NCBI RefSeq assembly: GCF_013201545.1
Contig: NZ_CP053746.1
Location: forward strand, 4,168,501 to 4,232,500
DNA: 64,000 nt
Direction: 5' to 3'
Source: Pseudomonas graminis
GTDB lineage: Bacteria; Pseudomonadota; Gammaproteobacteria; Pseudomonadales; Pseudomonadaceae
In this document: in pieces, positions 17,972 through 38,450 of the stretch
How positions within the stretch are numbered: position 1 is the first letter of the stretch
How the letters are laid out: each line of letters starts with the position of its first letter
Notes under the pieces: generated by a model
Told to the model about the DNA's origin: nothing
The model's input: the letters and a program-made list of their open reading frames with translations, nothing else
Databases searched by the model: none
Translations under genes and position numbers: made by a program

Positions 17972-18058
17972 GCCCTGATGGTGAAATTGGTAGACACACC
18001 GGACTTAAAATCCGTCGTCCGAAAGGATGTGCCGGTTCGACTCCGGCTCGGGGCACCA
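17972..18058 (+). tRNA. tRNA-Leu (UAA), prophage attachment site
   Basis: An 87-nt class II tRNA with a long variable arm, acceptor stem GCCCTGA/TCGGGGC, anticodon TAA in GACTTAAAATC, and an encoded CCA. A tyrosine integrase gene begins 163 bases downstream. Integration into the 3' half of this tRNA, a common phage target, is therefore likely. The matching repeat at the other prophage end is outside the window. Confidence 0.96.
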
Positions 18059-18092
18059 TATTCGATTCTCATGCCCTCTCAGGCATGCTCAG

Positions 18093-18125
18093 AAAACCCC
18101 GCTGGCGCAGGCCACGCGGGGTTTT
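18093..18125 (+). terminator. Terminator after tRNA-Leu
   Basis: A ten-pair stem (AAAACCCCGC / GCGGGGTTTT) with a 13-base loop. T-rich sequence follows on the plus strand. Confidence 0.75.
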
Positions 18126-18221
18126 CTGTTCTTAGGCATCCGCAACTCTTCTCACGCCTGCTCAGAATTTTTAGTACATTTACCAGCACATACTCAATTC
18201 GATTAATCTGGTGATGTACTA

Positions 18222-19448
18222 ATGCCCCTCACTGACACTGCCGTCCGGCAAGCGAAGCCCCGCGACAAGGACTACAGCCTCACTGACTCGGCCGGGCTGT
18301 CGCTCTTCGTTGCTGCAAAGGGCGCGAAGTCGTGGCATTTTCGGTTCTCCTGGCACGGCCGCCAACCGCGCATCTCCCTCGGCACCTACCCTGAAGTCAG
18401 CCTCAAGCAAGCACGCGAACGCCGGGACCAGGCCCGCTCGCTCATAGCAAAAGGAGTAGATCCGCGATCCGCCCGGCGTGAAGAAAAGCTGACCGCCAGC
18501 ACCGGTGCAGTGAAAACCTTCGAAGTTGTCGCTGAAGAATGGCATGCCTTCAAGTCACCGCGCATGACGGCGGCCCGGAAAGGCGGTGCAACTCAATCGC
18601 GCATGTACTTGGACAAAGACCTCATTCCGTCGCTAGGCAAGTTGCCGATATCTGATATCCGTCGCAGCGATGTGCTGTCGACCATGCGAAGGGTTGAGGC
18701 CCGGGGCGCGTTGAATGTCGCGAGGAAGTGCCGCTCGTGGCTGAATGAGATATTCCGGTTCGCGATCGCCTCCGGCTACATAGAGCACAACCCTGCGTCC
18801 GACCTGGACATCGTCGCGGTGAAGGAGCCGCCCGAGAAGCACAACCCGATGCTTCGGCTGGCTGAGCTTCCCGAGTTTCTCAATGCGCTGCGGACATTCA
18901 CCGGCGCCGAGTACACGCGCAGCGCGGTGAGGATATTGCTGTTGACCGGCGTTCGCACTGGCGAGCTTCGGTTCGCTACCCGCGATCAGTTCGACCTGGA
19001 CGGCGGGCTGTGGACGATTCCGCCCTCAGGCGTGAAGCAGTTGCAGAAGCTTATTCGAGGAAAAGATGGGGCAAAGGTGCCGCCTTATCTGGTGCCGCTG
19101 TCGCGGCAGGCGGTGGAGGAGATACGCAACGTCATGGAAATGACCGGCGCTTACACACTGCTACTGCCGGGCCGAAGTGACCCGGCAAAGCCGATAAGCG
19201 ACGGAACGGTCAACATGGCGCTTAAGCGTATGGGATATGAGGGCCGACTGACCGGGCACGGGATCCGCGCGACGATTTCGACTGCCCTGAACGAGATGGG
19301 GTACAACGAGGACTGGATCGAGGCGCAGCTGTCGCACGCAGGATCAAGCAAGATCCGGAAGACGTACAACCATGCCGAGTACGTGGAACAGCGGCGGGAG
19401 ATGATGCAGAACTGGGCTGACTACCTGGACAAGGTCGAGGCCATTTAA
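18222..19448 (+). CDS. Tyrosine-recombinase integrase
   Basis: A 408-residue integrase of the P4-like class that inserts and excises the prophage. It has an N-terminal arm-binding domain (DUF4102-like, residues 1-90), a core-binding domain (about 98-185) and a catalytic domain. Catalytic residues are visible as R245 (LLTGVRTGELRF), H346-x-x-R349 (GHGIRA), H372 (SHAG) and the nucleophile Y382 (KTYNHAEY). It lies directly beside tRNA-Leu. It converges on the AlpA-like gene, and their stops overlap. Confidence 0.95.
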   Translation: MPLTDTAVRQAKPRDKDYSLTDSAGLSLFVAAKGAKSWHFRFSWHGRQPRISLGTYPEVSLKQARERRDQARSLIAKGVDPRSARREEKLTASTGAVKTFEVVAEEWHAFKSPRMTAARKGGATQSRMYLDKDLIPSLGKLPISDIRRSDVLSTMRRVEARGALNVARKCRSWLNEIFRFAIASGYIEHNPASDLDIVAVKEPPEKHNPMLRLAELPEFLNALRTFTGAEYTRSAVRILLLTGVRTGELRFATRDQFDLDGGLWTIPPSGVKQLQKLIRGKDGAKVPPYLVPLSRQAVEEIRNVMEMTGAYTLLLPGRSDPAKPISDGTVNMALKRMGYEGRLTGHGIRATISTALNEMGYNEDWIEAQLSHAGSSKIRKTYNHAEYVEQRREMMQNWADYLDKVEAI

Positions 19449-33041: not shown

Positions 33042-33245
33042 TTATGAGGCCAGCTGGTTCGCAGGTTGGGCGGGGCTCAACAGCTGCTCTTGAATGCGCT
33101 GGTAGATTTCTTCCCTGTGCACCTGAATTTCGCGGGGGGCGGTGATCCCGATCCAGACTTGCTGGCCTTGAGTTCGGGTGACGGTGATCTGGATGTCGTC
33201 GTTGATGCGGATGGTTTCGCCGGGCCGGCGGGTGAGGATGAGCAT
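33042..33245 (-). CDS. csrA: CsrA/RsmA-family RNA-binding regulator
   Basis: A 67-residue CsrA protein: [20 protein letters not shown], then [26 protein letters not shown]. The RNA-contact residues L4 and R44 (VHREEIY) are present. It should dimerise and bind GGA motifs in mRNA leaders to block translation. Its own ribosome site sits in GAAG-GAA-CTTC just upstream of the ATG, so self-repression is plausible. It is the promoter-proximal gene of the leftward early operon. It differs clearly from core Pseudomonas RsmA (MLILTRKCAESL...), so it is a phage paralogue that could tap into the host Gac/Rsm system. Confidence 0.92.
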
Positions 33246-33275
33246 CTTGAAGTTCCTTCTGACGGTGGTTTCCCA

Positions 33276-33299
33276 ATGCAGCCTGTAGCCAGGCTGCAT
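33276..33299 (-). promoter_or_regulatory. RNA hairpin in the csrA leader
   Basis: A perfect ten-pair inverted repeat (ATGCAGCCTG / CAGGCTGCAT) with a four-base loop, 30 bases before the csrA start. No T-run follows on either strand, so it is more likely a structural or regulatory RNA element than a terminator. Confidence 0.5.
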
Positions 33300-33650: not shown

Positions 33651-33679
33651 AAACTAACCGCCGGTTTCTGGATCGTCAA
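33651..33679 (-). promoter_or_regulatory. Leftward early promoter (PL analogue)
   Basis: On the minus strand TTGACG (33679-33674) and TAGTTT (33656-33651) are 17 bases apart. Two repressor operators overlap or abut it. It would drive the csrA-recT-exonuclease-methylase operon. Confidence 0.72.
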
Positions 33680-33691
33680 TACCGGCGGTTA
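33655..33691. promoter_or_regulatory. Left operators OL1 and OL2
   Basis: TAACCGCCGGTT at 33655-33666 and TACCGGCGGTTA at 33680-33691 are copies of the TAACCG..CGGTTA palindrome found three times at 37448-37509. Their centres are 25 bases apart. They lie over the -10/spacer and just upstream of the -35 of the leftward promoter, as lambda OL does. Confidence 0.8.
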
Positions 33692-34005
33692 ATTTATCTC
33701 GCGTGGCGAGACGGTACCGCGCCTGATTCTGTATGAATCCACAGTGGTAATGCCTAGTGCGGGCGAATTGCCCTGCATTAGTGAAAAGACGTGCGTTCGT
33801 CTGGATGACCTGGTGGGTTGGGGTCTCATGGGCTCCGGCTAGTCAATCAAGCCGTTGGGGGGCCCCAGCAGTGGTTGGCCATCCAGCGCCTAGATGCTCA
33901 AGCGGTCTTTTCGAGCGCCCACCACTTTGTTCCTAGCTTGGGTGTTGGGCGACAGCCCGGCTTGTTAAAATCGACTGGAAATTTCGCTGATCAAGGATGA
34001 GCTTC
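33692..34005. other. Noncoding stretch between OL and SPOR gene
   Basis: No frame here is convincing. It contains an imperfect inverted repeat at 33754-33781 (CTAGTGCGGGC / GCCCTGCATTAG, one bulge and one mismatch). The lipoprotein promoter must lie here or just downstream, but I cannot fix it. Confidence 0.45.
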
Positions 34006-34791
34006 ATGGATTCGAAAACACGGCTTTTTGTCTTCTCTGTCAGCTTGATAGCGATCTCTCTAGCCGGTTGCGATGTCAGCCAAGACATGGCTGTAGAGAA
34101 GGGGAAAGAGATGGTGGCTTCGGCGCTAAAAGATCCCGCTTCGGCCACATTCGGCAGGGTCTTCATGGTTGAGAATCAAACCATTGGTGACTCGCATTAT
34201 GGCCTGTTATGTGGCGAGGTTAATTCAAAAAACTCGTTTGGTGGATTCACAGGTTTTCGCCGGTTCGTGGCGAATTTCAGTTATTCGAAACGCGGCGCGC
34301 TTGAGGTCAGCTACGTTACCCTCGAGGAGGGTGACAGAGCTGCGTTTAACCGAGCAGGAATCTCCTATTTCCAGGACGTATATTGGGATGGGAAATGTGA
34401 GCCACGTGCGCAACCTCCCGCTACAGCAAAAACAGAAGTTCAGACGCCTTTAGTACCTGTGAACCCTGCGCCCCCGCCAACCAAGGCGGCACATCCAGTG
34501 AAGAGCCGGACTCCCAGTCCCCCTCTAGAAGCCAGTGTGCCTACAGCACCTTCGGAGAAGAAAATTTCTGGATGGTCCGTACAGGTTGCCTCTGTTGCGG
34601 ATCGGAGAAAAGCAACATCCATTCGCGACCAGTTGGACTCATCCGGATCGTTGGCTTATGTCACCAGTGCGGCAGGCGTCTATCGCGTATTCTCCGGCCC
34701 CTACGAAACCAGAGCCTTGGCGGAGGCCGCGCTGGCTTCTTTAATGAGAACGCAACAGTTGAGGGGGATCGTAGTTAGAGCTGGGGACTGA
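34006..34791 (+). CDS. Lipoprotein with C-terminal SPOR domain
   Basis: A 261-residue lipoprotein. The signal peptide ends in the lipobox ISLAGC (lipidated C22). The middle segment (about 30-130) has a conserved feel (ALKDPASATFGRVFMVENQ, YGLLCGEVNSKNSFGGFTGFRRF). A Pro-rich linker follows, then a SPOR domain at about 185-261 (GWSVQVASVADRRKATSIRDQL...YRVFSGPYETRALAEAAL). SPOR domains bind peptidoglycan stripped of stem peptides, mainly at the division septum. It should therefore sit in the envelope of the lysogen. The ATG at 34006 is better spaced from AAGGA than the one nine bases earlier. It is isolated on the plus strand in the immunity region, as expected of a lysogenic-conversion gene. 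Confidence 0.8.
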   Translation: MDSKTRLFVFSVSLIAISLAGCDVSQDMAVEKGKEMVASALKDPASATFGRVFMVENQTIGDSHYGLLCGEVNSKNSFGGFTGFRRFVANFSYSKRGALEVSYVTLEEGDRAAFNRAGISYFQDVYWDGKCEPRAQPPATAKTEVQTPLVPVNPAPPPTKAAHPVKSRTPSPPLEASVPTAPSEKKISGWSVQVASVADRRKATSIRDQLDSSGSLAYVTSAAGVYRVFSGPYETRALAEAALASLMRTQQLRGIVVRAGD

Positions 34792-34806: not shown

Positions 34807-34830
34807 AAAAGCCCGCTTCGCGGCGGGCTT
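34807..34830. terminator. Terminator between SPOR and DUF3037 genes
   Basis: Stem GCCCGC/GCGGGC with a short loop, flanked by AAAAAAA on one side and TTTC on the other. It lies between two convergent genes and can serve both, being stronger on the minus strand (long T-run). Confidence 0.75.
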
Positions 34831-34879
34831 TCAATGTGCTAAGCGTTGCCGCGATAGCAAAGGCTAAAGCTAAAGGATT

Positions 34880-35707
34880 CTAATGCAGGATTGGGTGATC
34901 AGCGCCCGCCAAACGGGCCATAAGATTCAGATAGGCCTTTTCTTCCTGCTTGGAAGCGATGTTGAAAATGGAGCTACTGTAATCTTCGGCCAGATTAAGA
35001 TGAGATTGAATTTCTTTTTCTCTGGCGCTCGATGCGGAGTAAACGAAATAGCATCCCGAATCTTGTCCTAAATGCTTTTTGCCCTCCATGAATGTCATGA
35101 CCTTGAGGGTGGTTTCCTTAAACTTTGCTGATAAGTCGTTGACATTGTAGTCAATGACTTCGCTGATATGAAACTTTCCATTTTTCAACAAAAAATCAGC
35201 TGTGAATCCGGACTTATCACTAAAGTTATAGTTCTGAACTACCTTGTGAAAGCTAAGTTCTTCGGCGCTTTTCGCAAGCAGATTCATTGCTTCGAATTTG
35301 TGTTTAATCAGTGTTTGTATTCTTGAAGACTTTTTCACGCCTTCTCTGGTGCTGAATGGCTTGACGAGTTCGTTGAACAGCCGGTTTATCTGCGACTCAT
35401 ATTGTGATTCGTGATCAATTGAAAACGTTGCTTTGGTGCTTATCTTAAAAGCATTCTTGAACATTGCTAAAAACTCTAGCGTAGCCGCCTGTGTTCTACA
35501 TATGCTCTTGGCCTGCTCGAGCACATATTCGAATTCAGTAAGGTCACTTAGGCTGGATGCCCCATCGAGCAGTCGTAGCTTGGCTGCTCCATTTAGGACT
35601 CTAAACTCCATACCATCTTTGCCAAAAATGATTAGCCCGATATTTACAATCTCGCCACGCTTAGGGTTGGGCATGTATCTTATGAGAGAGTAATCATAGG
35701 TAATCAT
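34880..35707 (-). CDS. DUF3037-family protein, partner of the HipA-like kinase
   Basis: A 275-residue protein starting MITYDYSLIRYMPNPKRGEIVNIGLIIFGKDG, the hallmark of DUF3037. A helical remainder follows without catalytic motifs I can name. DUF3037 genes are known as neighbours of small HipA-like kinase genes; their role is not established. It begins two bases past the kinase stop; a TTG at 35713 is better spaced from AAGGA and would add two residues. The gene is AT-rich. It lies downstream of the repressor and kinase on the same strand, so the lysogen probably expresses all three together. Confidence 0.8.
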   Translation of the reverse strand: MITYDYSLIRYMPNPKRGEIVNIGLIIFGKDGMEFRVLNGAAKLRLLDGASSLSDLTEFEYVLEQAKSICRTQAATLEFLAMFKNAFKISTKATFSIDHESQYESQINRLFNELVKPFSTREGVKKSSRIQTLIKHKFEAMNLLAKSAEELSFHKVVQNYNFSDKSGFTADFLLKNGKFHISEVIDYNVNDLSAKFKETTLKVMTFMEGKKHLGQDSGCYFVYSASSAREKEIQSHLNLAEDYSSSIFNIASKQEEKAYLNLMARLAGADHPILH

Positions 35708-35709
35708 GA

Positions 35710-36525
35710 TCAAAGCATTCCTTTCAAAAATTCAATTCTTTCCACTCGTGCATGGGAGCCCCACCAATCTAGGAACATTCCGCGGTTCTCTGCAGGCATC
35801 CACTCAGCTGGAAAGTTCGAAATGATAGTATCGATATCGTCGACCGTCAATAAATGGATTTTGTCAAGGCATTTCTCTGCCTCACGTTTATCATATTGTC
35901 CGTAATGGCGGATTGCGTTGATGCCCGTGAAGGTGTTGCAATCTTCCGTGGCTTCGAATCCGAAAGGATTGAATGCAAACCACGCGCGACTAAAATCAAA
36001 CGCTAGTCCGATCTTCCCGCTATAACTCGGGCGGAATATGTAATTGCCGAAATGCCGGTCGACGTTGTTAACAAAAAGATCTAACGCATATACTTTGCTG
36101 AAAAAGGCTTTAAGCCCCACAATTGGAATCTCGCCTGAGAGGATACGGATTATTTCCGTGCGATCCTTGAGAGTTTCAACTCCACCCTCCCAAGCGGATC
36201 CGAATGCTAAAGAACCGTCGTGAAGCTCAATAACATCAAAATCGGGGGTGCCTATGAGAATGCGACGCGCAAGTTGATAGCAGAAAGCTTCTGAAGCGGG
36301 GACCATTCCATTGCCGTCGCTAATTGTCTTGACAGCATAATCCTTGCCATTCTCGGCAAGACCGATCATGCCTAGATCCGCAGACCCTTGGTCGTTCGGA
36401 TACGTGTTGATCAAGGCTATTGGAAATAGCTGCCTCTGAAACATTTGAGGACGCTGCTCAAGTGAGTCATTCACGTCATCTGGCTTTTGTTCTTGCGGCT
36501 GGGCGTCGTCTGTTCTGCTTGTCAT
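35710..36525 (-). CDS. HipA-like kinase in the immunity region
   Basis: A 271-residue protein of the compact HipA-like kinase type. It has an ATP-binding lysine in KDYAVK (K66), the catalytic loop FVNNVDRHFGNYIF (D156, N161) and a metal-binding AFDFSRAW (D177). It would phosphorylate a protein target. HipA relatives phosphorylate aminoacyl-tRNA synthetases or other translation proteins and cause growth arrest. There is no HipB-like antitoxin gene beside it; the neighbours are the phage repressor (40 bases upstream) and DUF3037 (downstream). Low GC marks it as foreign to both phage and host. The position matches lambda rexA. Confidence 0.8.
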   Translation of the reverse strand: MTSRTDDAQPQEQKPDDVNDSLEQRPQMFQRQLFPIALINTYPNDQGSADLGMIGLAENGKDYAVKTISDGNGMVPASEAFCYQLARRILIGTPDFDVIELHDGSLAFGSAWEGGVETLKDRTEIIRILSGEIPIVGLKAFFSKVYALDLFVNNVDRHFGNYIFRPSYSGKIGLAFDFSRAWFAFNPFGFEATEDCNTFTGINAIRHYGQYDKREAEKCLDKIHLLTVDDIDTIISNFPAEWMPAENRGMFLDWWGSHARVERIEFLKGML

Positions 36526-36564
36526 GGTCAAATTCCGTTTTGTGGTAATGAGGAGGTTAAGTGG

Positions 36565-37437
36565 CTAAATTAAAGTCGCGTTCCAGACAAGAAGCGCGCG
36601 AGCCTGGATGTCAGCATCTTTCGCCCGGATCGATTGCGGAGGAAAGCGGGTGTCGTCTGAAATCATGCTTAACTCCCCTTCGCCAACCCACTGCAGTCGC
36701 TTTATGTAATGACGATCTTCCCAGCAGAACATGTAGATCCCATCCCCGGCGAACTCCCGCACGCTCGTATCCACCAGCATTGGGTCGCGATGCTTGATGG
36801 TCGGTGCCATCGACTGACCCCAGCCCGTAACCAGCTTCAGGTCACGAGGCTCTCTGAACTCTACCCCCATATCGCGAAGATGACGCGGACTGACGCGCAC
36901 ATCTTGCAAAATTTCCGGATAATGGTGTGGGGTGTATGCGCCACCCACTGCTGCACGCATATCCAAGTGGGTAATCCACACTTCGTCCCCAACAGCACCT
37001 GGCCTGCACGAGTCGTGCTCCATGACTTCGCCTCGATCAGCTGATTTAGCAGCAGCAAGCAACCTTGCCTTGACGTCTTCAGCAATACCTTTGCCCTGCT
37101 TATCCAGCAGTTGGCGGACTAGATCCAAAGCCGTAGCGCTCTCCCCACGTTCAACAGCCTGCTCACTGGCGACGGTCAGGCCGTTAATTTCTTTGGCGAG
37201 ACGCTTGCTGAATTTCTCAACTGGCACACCGAGCAAACGCGAGAAGACTACTGCGAATTTCGCGTTCAGCGGGTTGGTGCCGTTCAGATACATGGCGACC
37301 GCTGCCGCAGAGATGTCAGCTGACTCCGCAAGGCTGGCTTGGGTGAGTCCGAGGGCATTCTTTCTCGACACGAATAGCGCCTTGGCGGCGTCGCACTCGG
37401 CTTTCAGCTCCGGGGATAATTCTTTCTTTTTACTCAT
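36565..37437 (-). CDS. CI-type repressor with S24 peptidase domain
   Basis: A 290-residue prophage repressor. The N-terminal XRE helix-turn-helix is at about 20-75 (LGLTQASLAESADISAAAVAMYLNGTNP) and the C-terminal LexA-like S24 domain has S209 (TGWGQSMAPTIKHRDPML) and K246 (RHYIKRLQW). On DNA damage, RecA should trigger self-cleavage and induction. The cleavage site is probably in the AAVGG segment near 162-166. It should bind the TAACCG..CGGTTA operators on both sides. There is no ribosome site before the ATG, and the likely promoter places the transcript start at the ATG itself. Confidence 0.92.
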   Translation of the reverse strand: MSKKKELSPELKAECDAAKALFVSRKNALGLTQASLAESADISAAAVAMYLNGTNPLNAKFAVVFSRLLGVPVEKFSKRLAKEINGLTVASEQAVERGESATALDLVRQLLDKQGKGIAEDVKARLLAAAKSADRGEVMEHDSCRPGAVGDEVWITHLDMRAAVGGAYTPHHYPEILQDVRVSPRHLRDMGVEFREPRDLKLVTGWGQSMAPTIKHRDPMLVDTSVREFAGDGIYMFCWEDRHYIKRLQWVGEGELSMISDDTRFPPQSIRAKDADIQARALLVWNATLI

Positions 37438-37444
37438 GCGCGAA

Positions 37445-37450
37445 ATTTAA
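37445..37450 (-). promoter_or_regulatory. Probable repressor-maintenance promoter (-10)
   Basis: On the minus strand TTAAAT lies seven bases before the repressor ATG, so the transcript would start at or next to the A of ATG (leaderless, like lambda cI from PRM). The -35 region (GCGCAA) is poor and sits beside the middle operator, as expected for a promoter activated by repressor. Confidence 0.5.
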
Positions 37451-37509
37451 CCGTTGGTTACATTATTTGCGCTAACCGGCGGTATTGCTCATAAGCTAAC
37501 CGGCGGTTA
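37448..37509. promoter_or_regulatory. Right operators (three sites)
   Basis: TAACCGTTGGTTA (37448-37460), TAACCGGCGGTA (37473-37484) and TAACCGGCGGTTA (37497-37509) are spaced about 24.5 bases centre to centre between the divergent repressor and Cro-like genes. This is the lambda OR layout. The same palindrome recurs at OL, 3.8 kb to the left. Confidence 0.87.
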
Positions 37510-37544: not shown

Positions 37545-37751
37545 ATGAAAAAGATCCCATTGCCAGAGCTGGTCGAGCGAATGGGGCAGTCCGCAGTGGC
37601 CAAAGGTCTCGGCGTCAGCGCTCCAGCTATTTCAAAAGCCCTGAAAGCAGCCCGGGAAATTCTCGTTGTCGAACACGAAAACGGGACGATGACAGCGGAA
37701 GAAATTCGTCCGTTCCCGTGCCAGCTCGCGCCCCAGCGAACCGCCGCCTGA
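37545..37751 (+). CDS. Cro-like repressor
   Basis: A 68-residue protein (MKKIPLPELVERMGQSAVAKGLGVSAPAISKALKAA...) with a Cro-type helix-turn-helix. It is the first gene of the rightward operon and divergent from the repressor. By position it should turn down repressor synthesis from the right operators and favour lytic growth. The ATG at 37545 follows GAGGCAGAGAA. Confidence 0.85.
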   Translation: MKKIPLPELVERMGQSAVAKGLGVSAPAISKALKAAREILVVEHENGTMTAEEIRPFPCQLAPQRTAA

Positions 37752-38018
37752 ACGTGCTGCGCGCTGAGCGAGAACGTCGCTCTTTCGAAGTCTCGGAGAG
37801 CCTTTCGGGCCTCTAGATCATGCGCCTCGTTTGCCGTCGCGCAAGGTGATTCGACACGCGTTTAGATCTGGGGCAGGGCGGATCCCACGGGGCCAACCTC
37901 ACAGCGCAGTGCTTGGGTTTTGAAGAGTTGTTCACTGGTACCCAAGCGAGCAAGTCGCAGGCCAATGATCAGGTAACTGGTGACACTCCACCACGCGAGA
38001 AAAACAGAGGTTTTCGCA

Positions 38019-38450
38019 ATGGAAGATTTTGAAAGAACGCTTCACCGCGAGGTGAAGGCCGGCGGCGGTACCGCGCTGGCCAAGCGTATAGGCGTCAACG
38101 AAACACGACTGCTGGACTGCGCCAACCCGAACAGGGAAGCGCACCGCATGAACCTGGAGCTGTTCGGCCAGGTGCTCACGCATCTGTCTGACGCCGGGCG
38201 CCGTAGCGTGCTGGCTGCGCTGGCGAATGAGTTCGGCTTCGACATCATCCCCAGAGTGACGCCGCCGCCTCAGGCGCTCACTGCGTCGTTGATCAACGTC
38301 GGCAAGGAAGTCGCCGATCTGACGATCGCGGTTCACCAGGCGCTGGGCGACAACCACGTCAGCACCTTTGAGAAATCCCAGATCCGCGTCGAGATAGACC
38401 ACGTTCGCAAGAGCCTGGACGTGATGGACGCATCGGTTCGGGCAGCCTGA
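38019..38450 (+). CDS. Phage CII-type regulator
   Basis: A 143-residue protein of the phage regulatory CII family (MEDFERTLHREVKAGGGTALAKRIGVNETRLLDCANPNREAHRMNLELF). The N-terminal helix-turn-helix reads like a recogniser of direct repeats, and a helical tail may form the oligomer. By position it should activate lysogeny promoters during infection. About 270 bases without a clear gene precede it. Confidence 0.82.
   Translation: MEDFERTLHREVKAGGGTALAKRIGVNETRLLDCANPNREAHRMNLELFGQVLTHLSDAGRRSVLAALANEFGFDIIPRVTPPPQALTASLINVGKEVADLTIAVHQALGDNHVSTFEKSQIRVEIDHVRKSLDVMDASVRAA

Follow-up and report, generated by a model that had tools for sequence, protein, structure and literature searches.

A HipA-like kinase gene and a DUF3037 gene lie directly behind the CI-type repressor gene of a prophage of Pseudomonas graminis, and the pair is probably (with a probability of about 0.7) a lysogen-expressed toxin–antitoxin module that aborts infection by other phages. 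The window, i.e. the whole stretch of DNA that was analysed, comprises 64,000 nucleotides. Neither the defence identity of such pairs nor the status of the site as a defence hotspot is new, as published work on HipAD/PDC-M66, BstA, rexAB and RexABpp already covers both this type of system and this type of location. New here are the tally of how often the pair recurs behind repressors, the E. coli pairs at the place of rexAB, and the variability of the slot. Across phages whose repressors differ, these results connect the kinase/DUF3037 system, a form of defence described recently, with the classical rexAB slot. The locus also offers a simple genetic set-up for the question of how the kinase is triggered, and of how an induced prophage escapes its own defence.

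Organization of the immunity region

The features of the region are given below in window positions.

33655..33691, left operator-like region, two sites with the same palindrome (33655-33667 and 33679-33691)
33997..34791, plus strand, convergent SPOR-domain gene, within the immunity region and outside the operon (Pfam, PHROGs)
34807..34832, minus strand, terminator-like hairpin (10 pairs, 6 G-C) and T run after the DUF3037 gene
34880..35707, minus strand, DUF3037 protein gene, 275 aa from the ATG at 35707, predicted as probable antitoxin/sensor
35710..36525, minus strand, HipA-like kinase gene, 271 aa from the ATG at 36525, predicted as probable toxin/effector
36565..37437, minus strand, CI-type repressor gene (HTH_3 and Peptidase_S24; Pfam, PHROGs), first gene of the putative operon
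37448..37509, right operator-like region between cI and cro, three palindromic sites (37448-37460, 37473-37485 and 37497-37509)
37545..37751, plus strand, Cro (PF09048, E 1.8e-20)
37980..38450, plus strand, CII-like regulator (CP76; Pfam)

On the minus strand the order is cI (37437-36565), kinase and DUF3037. The open reading frames and the Pfam matches confirm the two genes, their order and their strand as claimed in an earlier, sequence-only reading of this DNA; its claim of closeness to CI on the same strand also stands, with the gap corrected from 40 bases to 39 bases between the CI stop codon and the kinase ATG. The two genes had further been called AT-rich, which agrees with GC contents of 47.5% (kinase) and 42.4% (DUF3037) versus 55.6% for CI and 59.0% for the window, and this lower GC content suggests an outside origin of the pair.

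An operator palindrome, TAACCGNCGGTTA, was derived from the cI-cro sites and searched for with at most 2 mismatches. The window contains nine occurrences, as compared with a mean of 1.14 and a maximum of four in 100 shuffles. Three of the nine are the source of the pattern (spaced 24–25 bases) and four are scattered, each with two mismatches, whereas the remaining two, at 33655 and 33679 (24 bases apart), form the left region and constitute the independent evidence for operators. The right and left operators of lambda have the same kind of layout. The arrangement suggests a lambda-type immunity region that encloses the kinase/DUF3037 pair. The pair occupies a rexAB-type position: it lies on the cI strand in the interval from cI to the left operator-like sites, with operators and terminators recognised by pattern only. 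This placement had been proposed in the sequence-only reading, and it is supported by the operator-like sites on both sides as well as by relatives at repressor-linked sites, including six E. coli prophages.

Pattern scans between 34600 and 37700 gave four terminator-like sites on both strands, compared with 3.2 in shuffles. The sole minus-strand site among them (34832-34807) lies directly after the pair and is weak evidence, because the whole-scan count is near chance. In the gap between cI and the kinase, the scan, at this near-chance level, gave no promoter-like site at all and nothing terminator-like on the minus strand, in agreement with the earlier statement that no terminator is visible there. 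Promoter-like sites numbered six, compared with 3.3 in shuffles. The gap holds no such site, but three minus-strand ones, near chance level, lie inside the pair, one in the kinase gene upstream of the DUF3037 gene (35850-35822, 10 of 12 matches) and two within the DUF3037 gene (35625-35598 and 35172-35144). A separate DUF3037 message could arise from the site at 35850-35822.

A HipB-type antitoxin is not found adjacent to the pair, whose neighbour upstream is the phage repressor, and the claim that HipB is lacking was thus correct; the kinase itself is flanked by CI and DUF3037. With the HipB-like model TIGR03070, CI scores 21.2, far under the cut-off of 71.65. The replication O protein lies beyond Cro and CII, on the other side of the switch (Pfam, PHROGs), and the prophage around the pair further encodes a RecE-like exonuclease, a helicase loader, terminase, portal and head proteins, and has a tape measure gene. 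A tRNA-Leu followed by an integrase, at 17972-19448, is a likely attachment end of the prophage. Two other genes may be mentioned: the SPOR-domain gene (33997-34791) sits between the left operator-like sites and the DUF3037 gene, and a phage-borne CsrA-like regulator is encoded at 33042-33299, leftward of the left operator-like sites.

The kinase and its DUF3037 partner

In a numbering that begins at the ATG (36525; there is also an in-frame TTG at 36531), the kinase contains K66, VDRHFGN with D156 and N161, and DFS at 177 with D177, i.e. the motifs that the sequence-only reading had named. In an alignment of 32 kinases including that of the window (A5, compiled without L016, the fragments L024 and L041, loci L072-L076 from E. 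coli and plasmids, and any locus that duplicated or nearly duplicated another), no variation occurs at the D and N of the catalytic loop or at the D of DFS, and the lysine (K66) is nearly invariant. A HipA-like kinase directly followed by a DUF3037 protein is the feature that marks membership of the HipA/DUF3037 group, and this arrangement is present here with a kinase score of 25.0 bits for HipA_2 (PF20613), slightly under the Pfam cut-off of 27. At E ≤ 0.01, HipA_2 is matched by every one of the 32 aligned kinases and HipA_C by 28 of them. The kinase of the window matches phrog_3162 in PHROGs (E 1.5e-26), and a profile of the 32 kinases matches HipT(Lp) of Legionella (PDB 8ezr, E 8.2e-5) and CtkA (3akj, E 6.5e-4). 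In PADLOC, the kinase gives weak matches to PDC-M03A alone (best E 1.9e-4) and no match to a PDC-M66 model at E 0.01. The host chromosome encodes two more HipA_C genes beyond the window (G000:C1:3552519-3553184 and 811716-812291).

The partner is identified by PF11236 (DUF3037) at 38.5 bits, well over the cut-off of 22.6, and matches PDC-M66B in PADLOC (E 8.3e-8) and phrog_5137 in PHROGs (E 3.3e-25). DUF3037 is likewise matched by 32 of the 33 partner proteins, including that of the window, in an alignment (A6) from which L016, loci L072-L076 (E. coli and plasmids) and repeated or almost identical loci were omitted. Two starts are available to the gene: a TTG at 35713 that overlaps the kinase stop codon and gives a 4-base overlap with the kinase gene, and the ATG at 35707, two bases past that stop. 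A DUF1829 domain was not found in the window's protein at E values up to 10, a threshold at which the HMMER filters still drop most weak matches, nor, with the same caveat, in the E. coli relative and three plasmid relatives. Conserved residues occur in the C-terminal half of the DUF3037 protein (e.g. A172, D173, E185, D188 and E200). They had suggested a nuclease-like or DNA-binding domain in this half, a reading that is not adopted here, as profile searches against the PDB gave chance-level matches alone. On one viral contig (L041:3965-5115), the DUF3037 gene is intact and the kinase match extends over just 59 aa, reflecting either loss of the toxin with the partner kept or a sequence error.

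Recurrence of the pair behind repressors

The pair is rare, as indicated by matches in one of 369 genomes of the class sample (the window's own) and in 5 of 398 genomes of the phylum sample. Searches with the kinase in the genus sample and with DUF3037 in the family sample matched 5 and 6 of 398 genomes, respectively, each including the window's own. Combined, the two samples yield the pair in six members of the window's genus. Each of these carries it behind a same-strand CI-type repressor, within 80 bases in five and at 633 bases, with a small ORF between, in the sixth (L016). Two further genomes of the family differ in what they offer: in one (G887) the pair has no repressor upstream, and the other (G968) has only 760 bases of upstream sequence to judge from.

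Relatives pooled from viral and genome contigs and from genome, plasmid and E. coli matches amounted to 79 kinase loci, many of them duplicates, which form 38 clusters at 90% identity. A same-strand repressor lies at most 700 bases upstream in 25 of the 38 clusters, including the window's, and at most 200 bases upstream in 19; in six of the 25 the distance is 292-633 bases, mostly with a small ORF between. Ten clusters have no repressor despite at least 900 bases of upstream sequence, and three have too little upstream sequence. The association of the pair with prophage repressors, which the sequence-only reading had suggested looking for, is therefore found in 25/38 clusters and is not universal, given the 10/38 that lack one. 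The repressors were recognised with a set seeded with 12 repressors of the same loci (10 checked by Pfam, two taken from annotation), the regulator upstream in L084 was counted without a Pfam check, and the listing of upstream genes omits duplicates of the same contigs and L042, in which no kinase was found. As a control, 375 other genes with a length of 100 aa or more were examined, from one locus per cluster, and such a repressor preceded one of them; this contrast is inflated because at most one gene per locus can directly follow the repressor. As viral contigs favour prophages, the whole-genome searches were also tallied alone: of 17 clusters, eight have a repressor, six have none and three are too short upstream, and outside the window's genus a repressor is present in 2 of 11.

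By single linkage, the 25 repressors fall into 5, 10 and 19 groups at 30, 40 and 60% identity, respectively. On contig L007, the kinase and DUF3037 protein are 85% and 83% identical to those of the window, whereas the CI is only 57% identical, which indicates that the pair and the repressor are not evolving as one block. Amino-acid divergence in the pair is low, with dN for both genes at 0.11 relative to L007 and 0.15 relative to L008; dS was returned as -1, which we take as saturation. A collection of 50,697 phage records contained no match to the window's kinase or DUF3037 protein, nor to an enterobacterial kinase.

A DNA search with an enterobacterial member matched 24 of 5426 complete E. 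coli genomes, and all matches are chromosomal. The six prophages inspected share one gene order: repressor, kinase, DUF3037, cell division inhibitor (kil-like), gam, bet and lambda-type exonuclease. Lambda has the same gene order, with rexAB at the place of the pair. The kinase/DUF3037 pair thus occupies the rexAB place in the six inspected E. coli prophages (of the 24 genomes), in all of which the kinase is annotated as hypothetical. The two proteins are ∼30% identical to those of the window. One repressor is common to five of the six, and the sixth carries an S24 repressor distinct from theirs, together with a CII gene. Between two of these lambdoid prophages (L072 and L087) the pairs are 99.7% identical in DNA, the repressors differ, and the regulators downstream are of the YdaT type and CII, respectively. 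Three plasmid matches were also obtained, one among phage genes with an S24 gene upstream, the second adjoining a type I restriction system and the third beside neither.

Relation to known systems

Relatives of both genes have been characterised experimentally. According to the available text of PMC13092281, the system DS-6, renamed HipAD, consists of a HipA-family kinase and a DUF3037/DUF1829 protein and protects E. coli, and this defence is lost on mutating a predicted catalytic residue of the kinase; its authors hypothesise a toxin–antitoxin mechanism, and they cite Brenes and Laub (2025), whose title puts such systems in E. coli prophages. For the genes beside Retron-Sda1, the accessible part of PMC12548924 reports that deletion of the kinase abolished defence against Bas51 and that deletion of the DUF3037 gene was toxic, and it gives PDC-M66 as the PADLOC label for HipA/DUF3037 pairs. 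The identity of the DUF3037 protein had been recognised correctly in the sequence-only reading, but its description as an unexplained neighbour of such kinases does not hold, given the function published in these two papers. The proposed role of DUF3037 as a restraint agrees with the toxic deletion beside Retron-Sda1, and the proposed defence role matches what these papers, as far as available, report for relatives and would by extension apply to the window's copy.

The pair is a relative of HipAD, with which it shares the two-gene composition of a HipA-like kinase and a DUF3037 protein, the lack of HipB and, judging from the cited title, a prophage setting in E. coli. It is perhaps a distinct branch, as DUF1829 was not found and the kinase was not recognised as PDC-M66. 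DS-6B is described with both DUF3037 and DUF1829, the latter undetected here, although this comparison is by description alone, and the accessible text of PMC12548924 makes no mention of DUF1829 for the partner beside Retron-Sda1. With that Sda1 pair the window's genes share the same two domains in a two-gene unit, and the DUF3037 protein of the window matches PDC-M66B; they differ in the kinase, which has no match to a PDC-M66 model, and in their setting behind a phage repressor, whereas the Sda1 pair accompanies a retron RT in Sphingobacterium. HipBA and HipBST also have a HipA-like kinase, and the profile matches to HipT of Legionella and CtkA reflect this likeness; unlike them, the pair has no HipB found adjacent to it and has DUF3037 as its partner.

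In position, the pair resembles lambda RexAB and RexABpp of a P. putida prophage, which are likewise two genes downstream of a CI-type repressor with presumed expression from the repressor promoter, although the effector there is a membrane protein and here a kinase. RexABpp, as described in the available part of PMC12894663, lies in the operon of a CI-like repressor, separated from it by two further genes, which sets it apart from the window's pair. Neither gene matches a Rex family in Pfam or PHROGs, and RexA does not appear in the PDB profile searches with the kinase or DUF3037. BstA is a further lysogen-expressed defence gene encoded downstream of prophage repressors (PMC8585504, in the text available), and its protein is unrelated to the pair; the same paper refers to the cI-n region as a hotspot of mosaic diversity in which rexAB also lies, with Degnan (2007) among the works it cites. 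The terms 'DUF' and 'prophage' are absent from the main text of Gerdes (2021; PMC8262856) as accessible, and a few-term search of the available text of PMC13190303 and PMC12945033 gave nothing on the pair apart from a citation. No paper on the pair in Pseudomonas prophages was noticed, which says little, as most subscription papers lie outside the search.

The cargo slot behind this CI family

The genes behind cI were surveyed in viral-contig relatives of the window's CI, of which 80 (56-77% identity) were kept from a total of 121; for 77 of the 80, the downstream sequence extends for 1 kb or more. With genes shorter than 100 aa excluded, the same-strand gene runs in these loci (L090-L169) comprise 51 gene families, and some of these families may be spurious because the ORF calls are mechanical. 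The kinase and DUF3037 are absent from the up to four downstream genes listed in all 80 loci, and since 80 of 121 relatives were kept, the pair behind a more distant CI (e.g. L007, CI 57%) falls outside this set. Among the 51 family representatives, 23 matched Pfam at E ≤ 0.001, and of ten representatives examined singly four were without a Pfam match. PADLOC models matched include BstA (E 3.9e-119), PD-Lambda-5_B (1.6e-110), PDC-S42 (5.9e-102) and 'beta' (5.7e-156), as well as AAA ATPase and methyltransferase models; altogether 126 models matched and, among 25 listed, all but one did so in a single member. Behind this CI family the slot is thus hypervariable. Known defence genes are carried there too, and the window's pair is one cargo among many. 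It is a varied, mostly uncharacterised store of candidate defence genes and a possible source of new ones. Over the 2.5 kb examined, 52 of the 80 loci show the start of a conserved convergent gene of ∼105 aa; a counterpart in the window was rejected, its match reaching only E 0.042.

Proposed mechanism and alternatives

The two genes are cargo of a lambda-like prophage and would be expressed in the lysogen by the promoter that drives the repressor itself. In lambda, rexAB is transcribed in the lysogen from the repressor promoter. A HipA-like kinase toxin would be restrained by the DUF3037 protein, both being made from one message with probable coupling of translation, given the 4-base overlap or 2-base spacing of the genes. 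Infection by another phage may then disturb DUF3037, or the balance between kinase and DUF3037, and the freed kinase would phosphorylate a target in the host, which on the precedent of HipA and HipT may be an aminoacyl-tRNA synthetase. Growth would stop and the infection would be aborted. In favour of this reading are the gene identities, the catalytic motifs, the operator-like sites, the recurrence behind repressors and the published results for relatives. Weighing against it are the HipA_2 score below the cut-off, the missing PDC-M66 match of the kinase, the DUF1829 difference from DS-6B, the ten clusters with no repressor, the tally of whole-genome searches alone, the promoter-like site inside the kinase gene and the lack of matches among the phage records.

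The best rival is that the pair serves mainly as an addiction module on the repressor promoter: cells that lose the prophage or leave lysogeny would be penalised, and any protection from phages would be incidental. Toxin and antitoxin logic, as reported for a relative in the accessible part of PMC12548924, fits this view, as do the recurrent coupling to repressors and the location in the immunity region. We regard it as rather unlikely, because relatives defend against phages in two published studies (PMC13092281 and PMC12548924, as available), relatives also occur away from prophage repressors, such as the plasmid copy beside the type I restriction system, and defence-gene matches also occur in the slot of loci whose CI is related to this one. 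Quite doubtful, in turn, is a dead-man switch in which the kinase is paired with a short-lived DUF3037 antidote that is supplied only while CI is made. Anything that closes the repressor promoter would free the kinase, be it cleavage of CI in the SOS response, an antirepressor brought by an invader, a halt of host transcription or prophage loss, so that the trigger would be the status of the repressor and not a specific phage protein. Such a switch would account for the repeated recombination of the pair behind different repressors.

An action of the kinase on the prophage's own lysis-lysogeny switch (e.g. on CI, Cro or host translation at induction), modulated by DUF3037, would agree with the place of the pair beside cI in many phages, where the genes are presumably expressed together. 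Two observations nevertheless speak against a dedicated partner in the switch: the pair is combined with 10 repressor groups at 40% identity and 5 at 30%, and in E. coli nearly identical pairs stand behind two different repressors. This explanation is very improbable. Least credible of all is a neutral or decayed passenger, which the GC content, lower than that of the surroundings, would suit as a sign of outside origin. Against it stand the intact catalytic residues, the dN of ∼0.11-0.15 in both genes where dS is not computable and taken as saturated, and the better conservation of both genes than of CI relative to L007.
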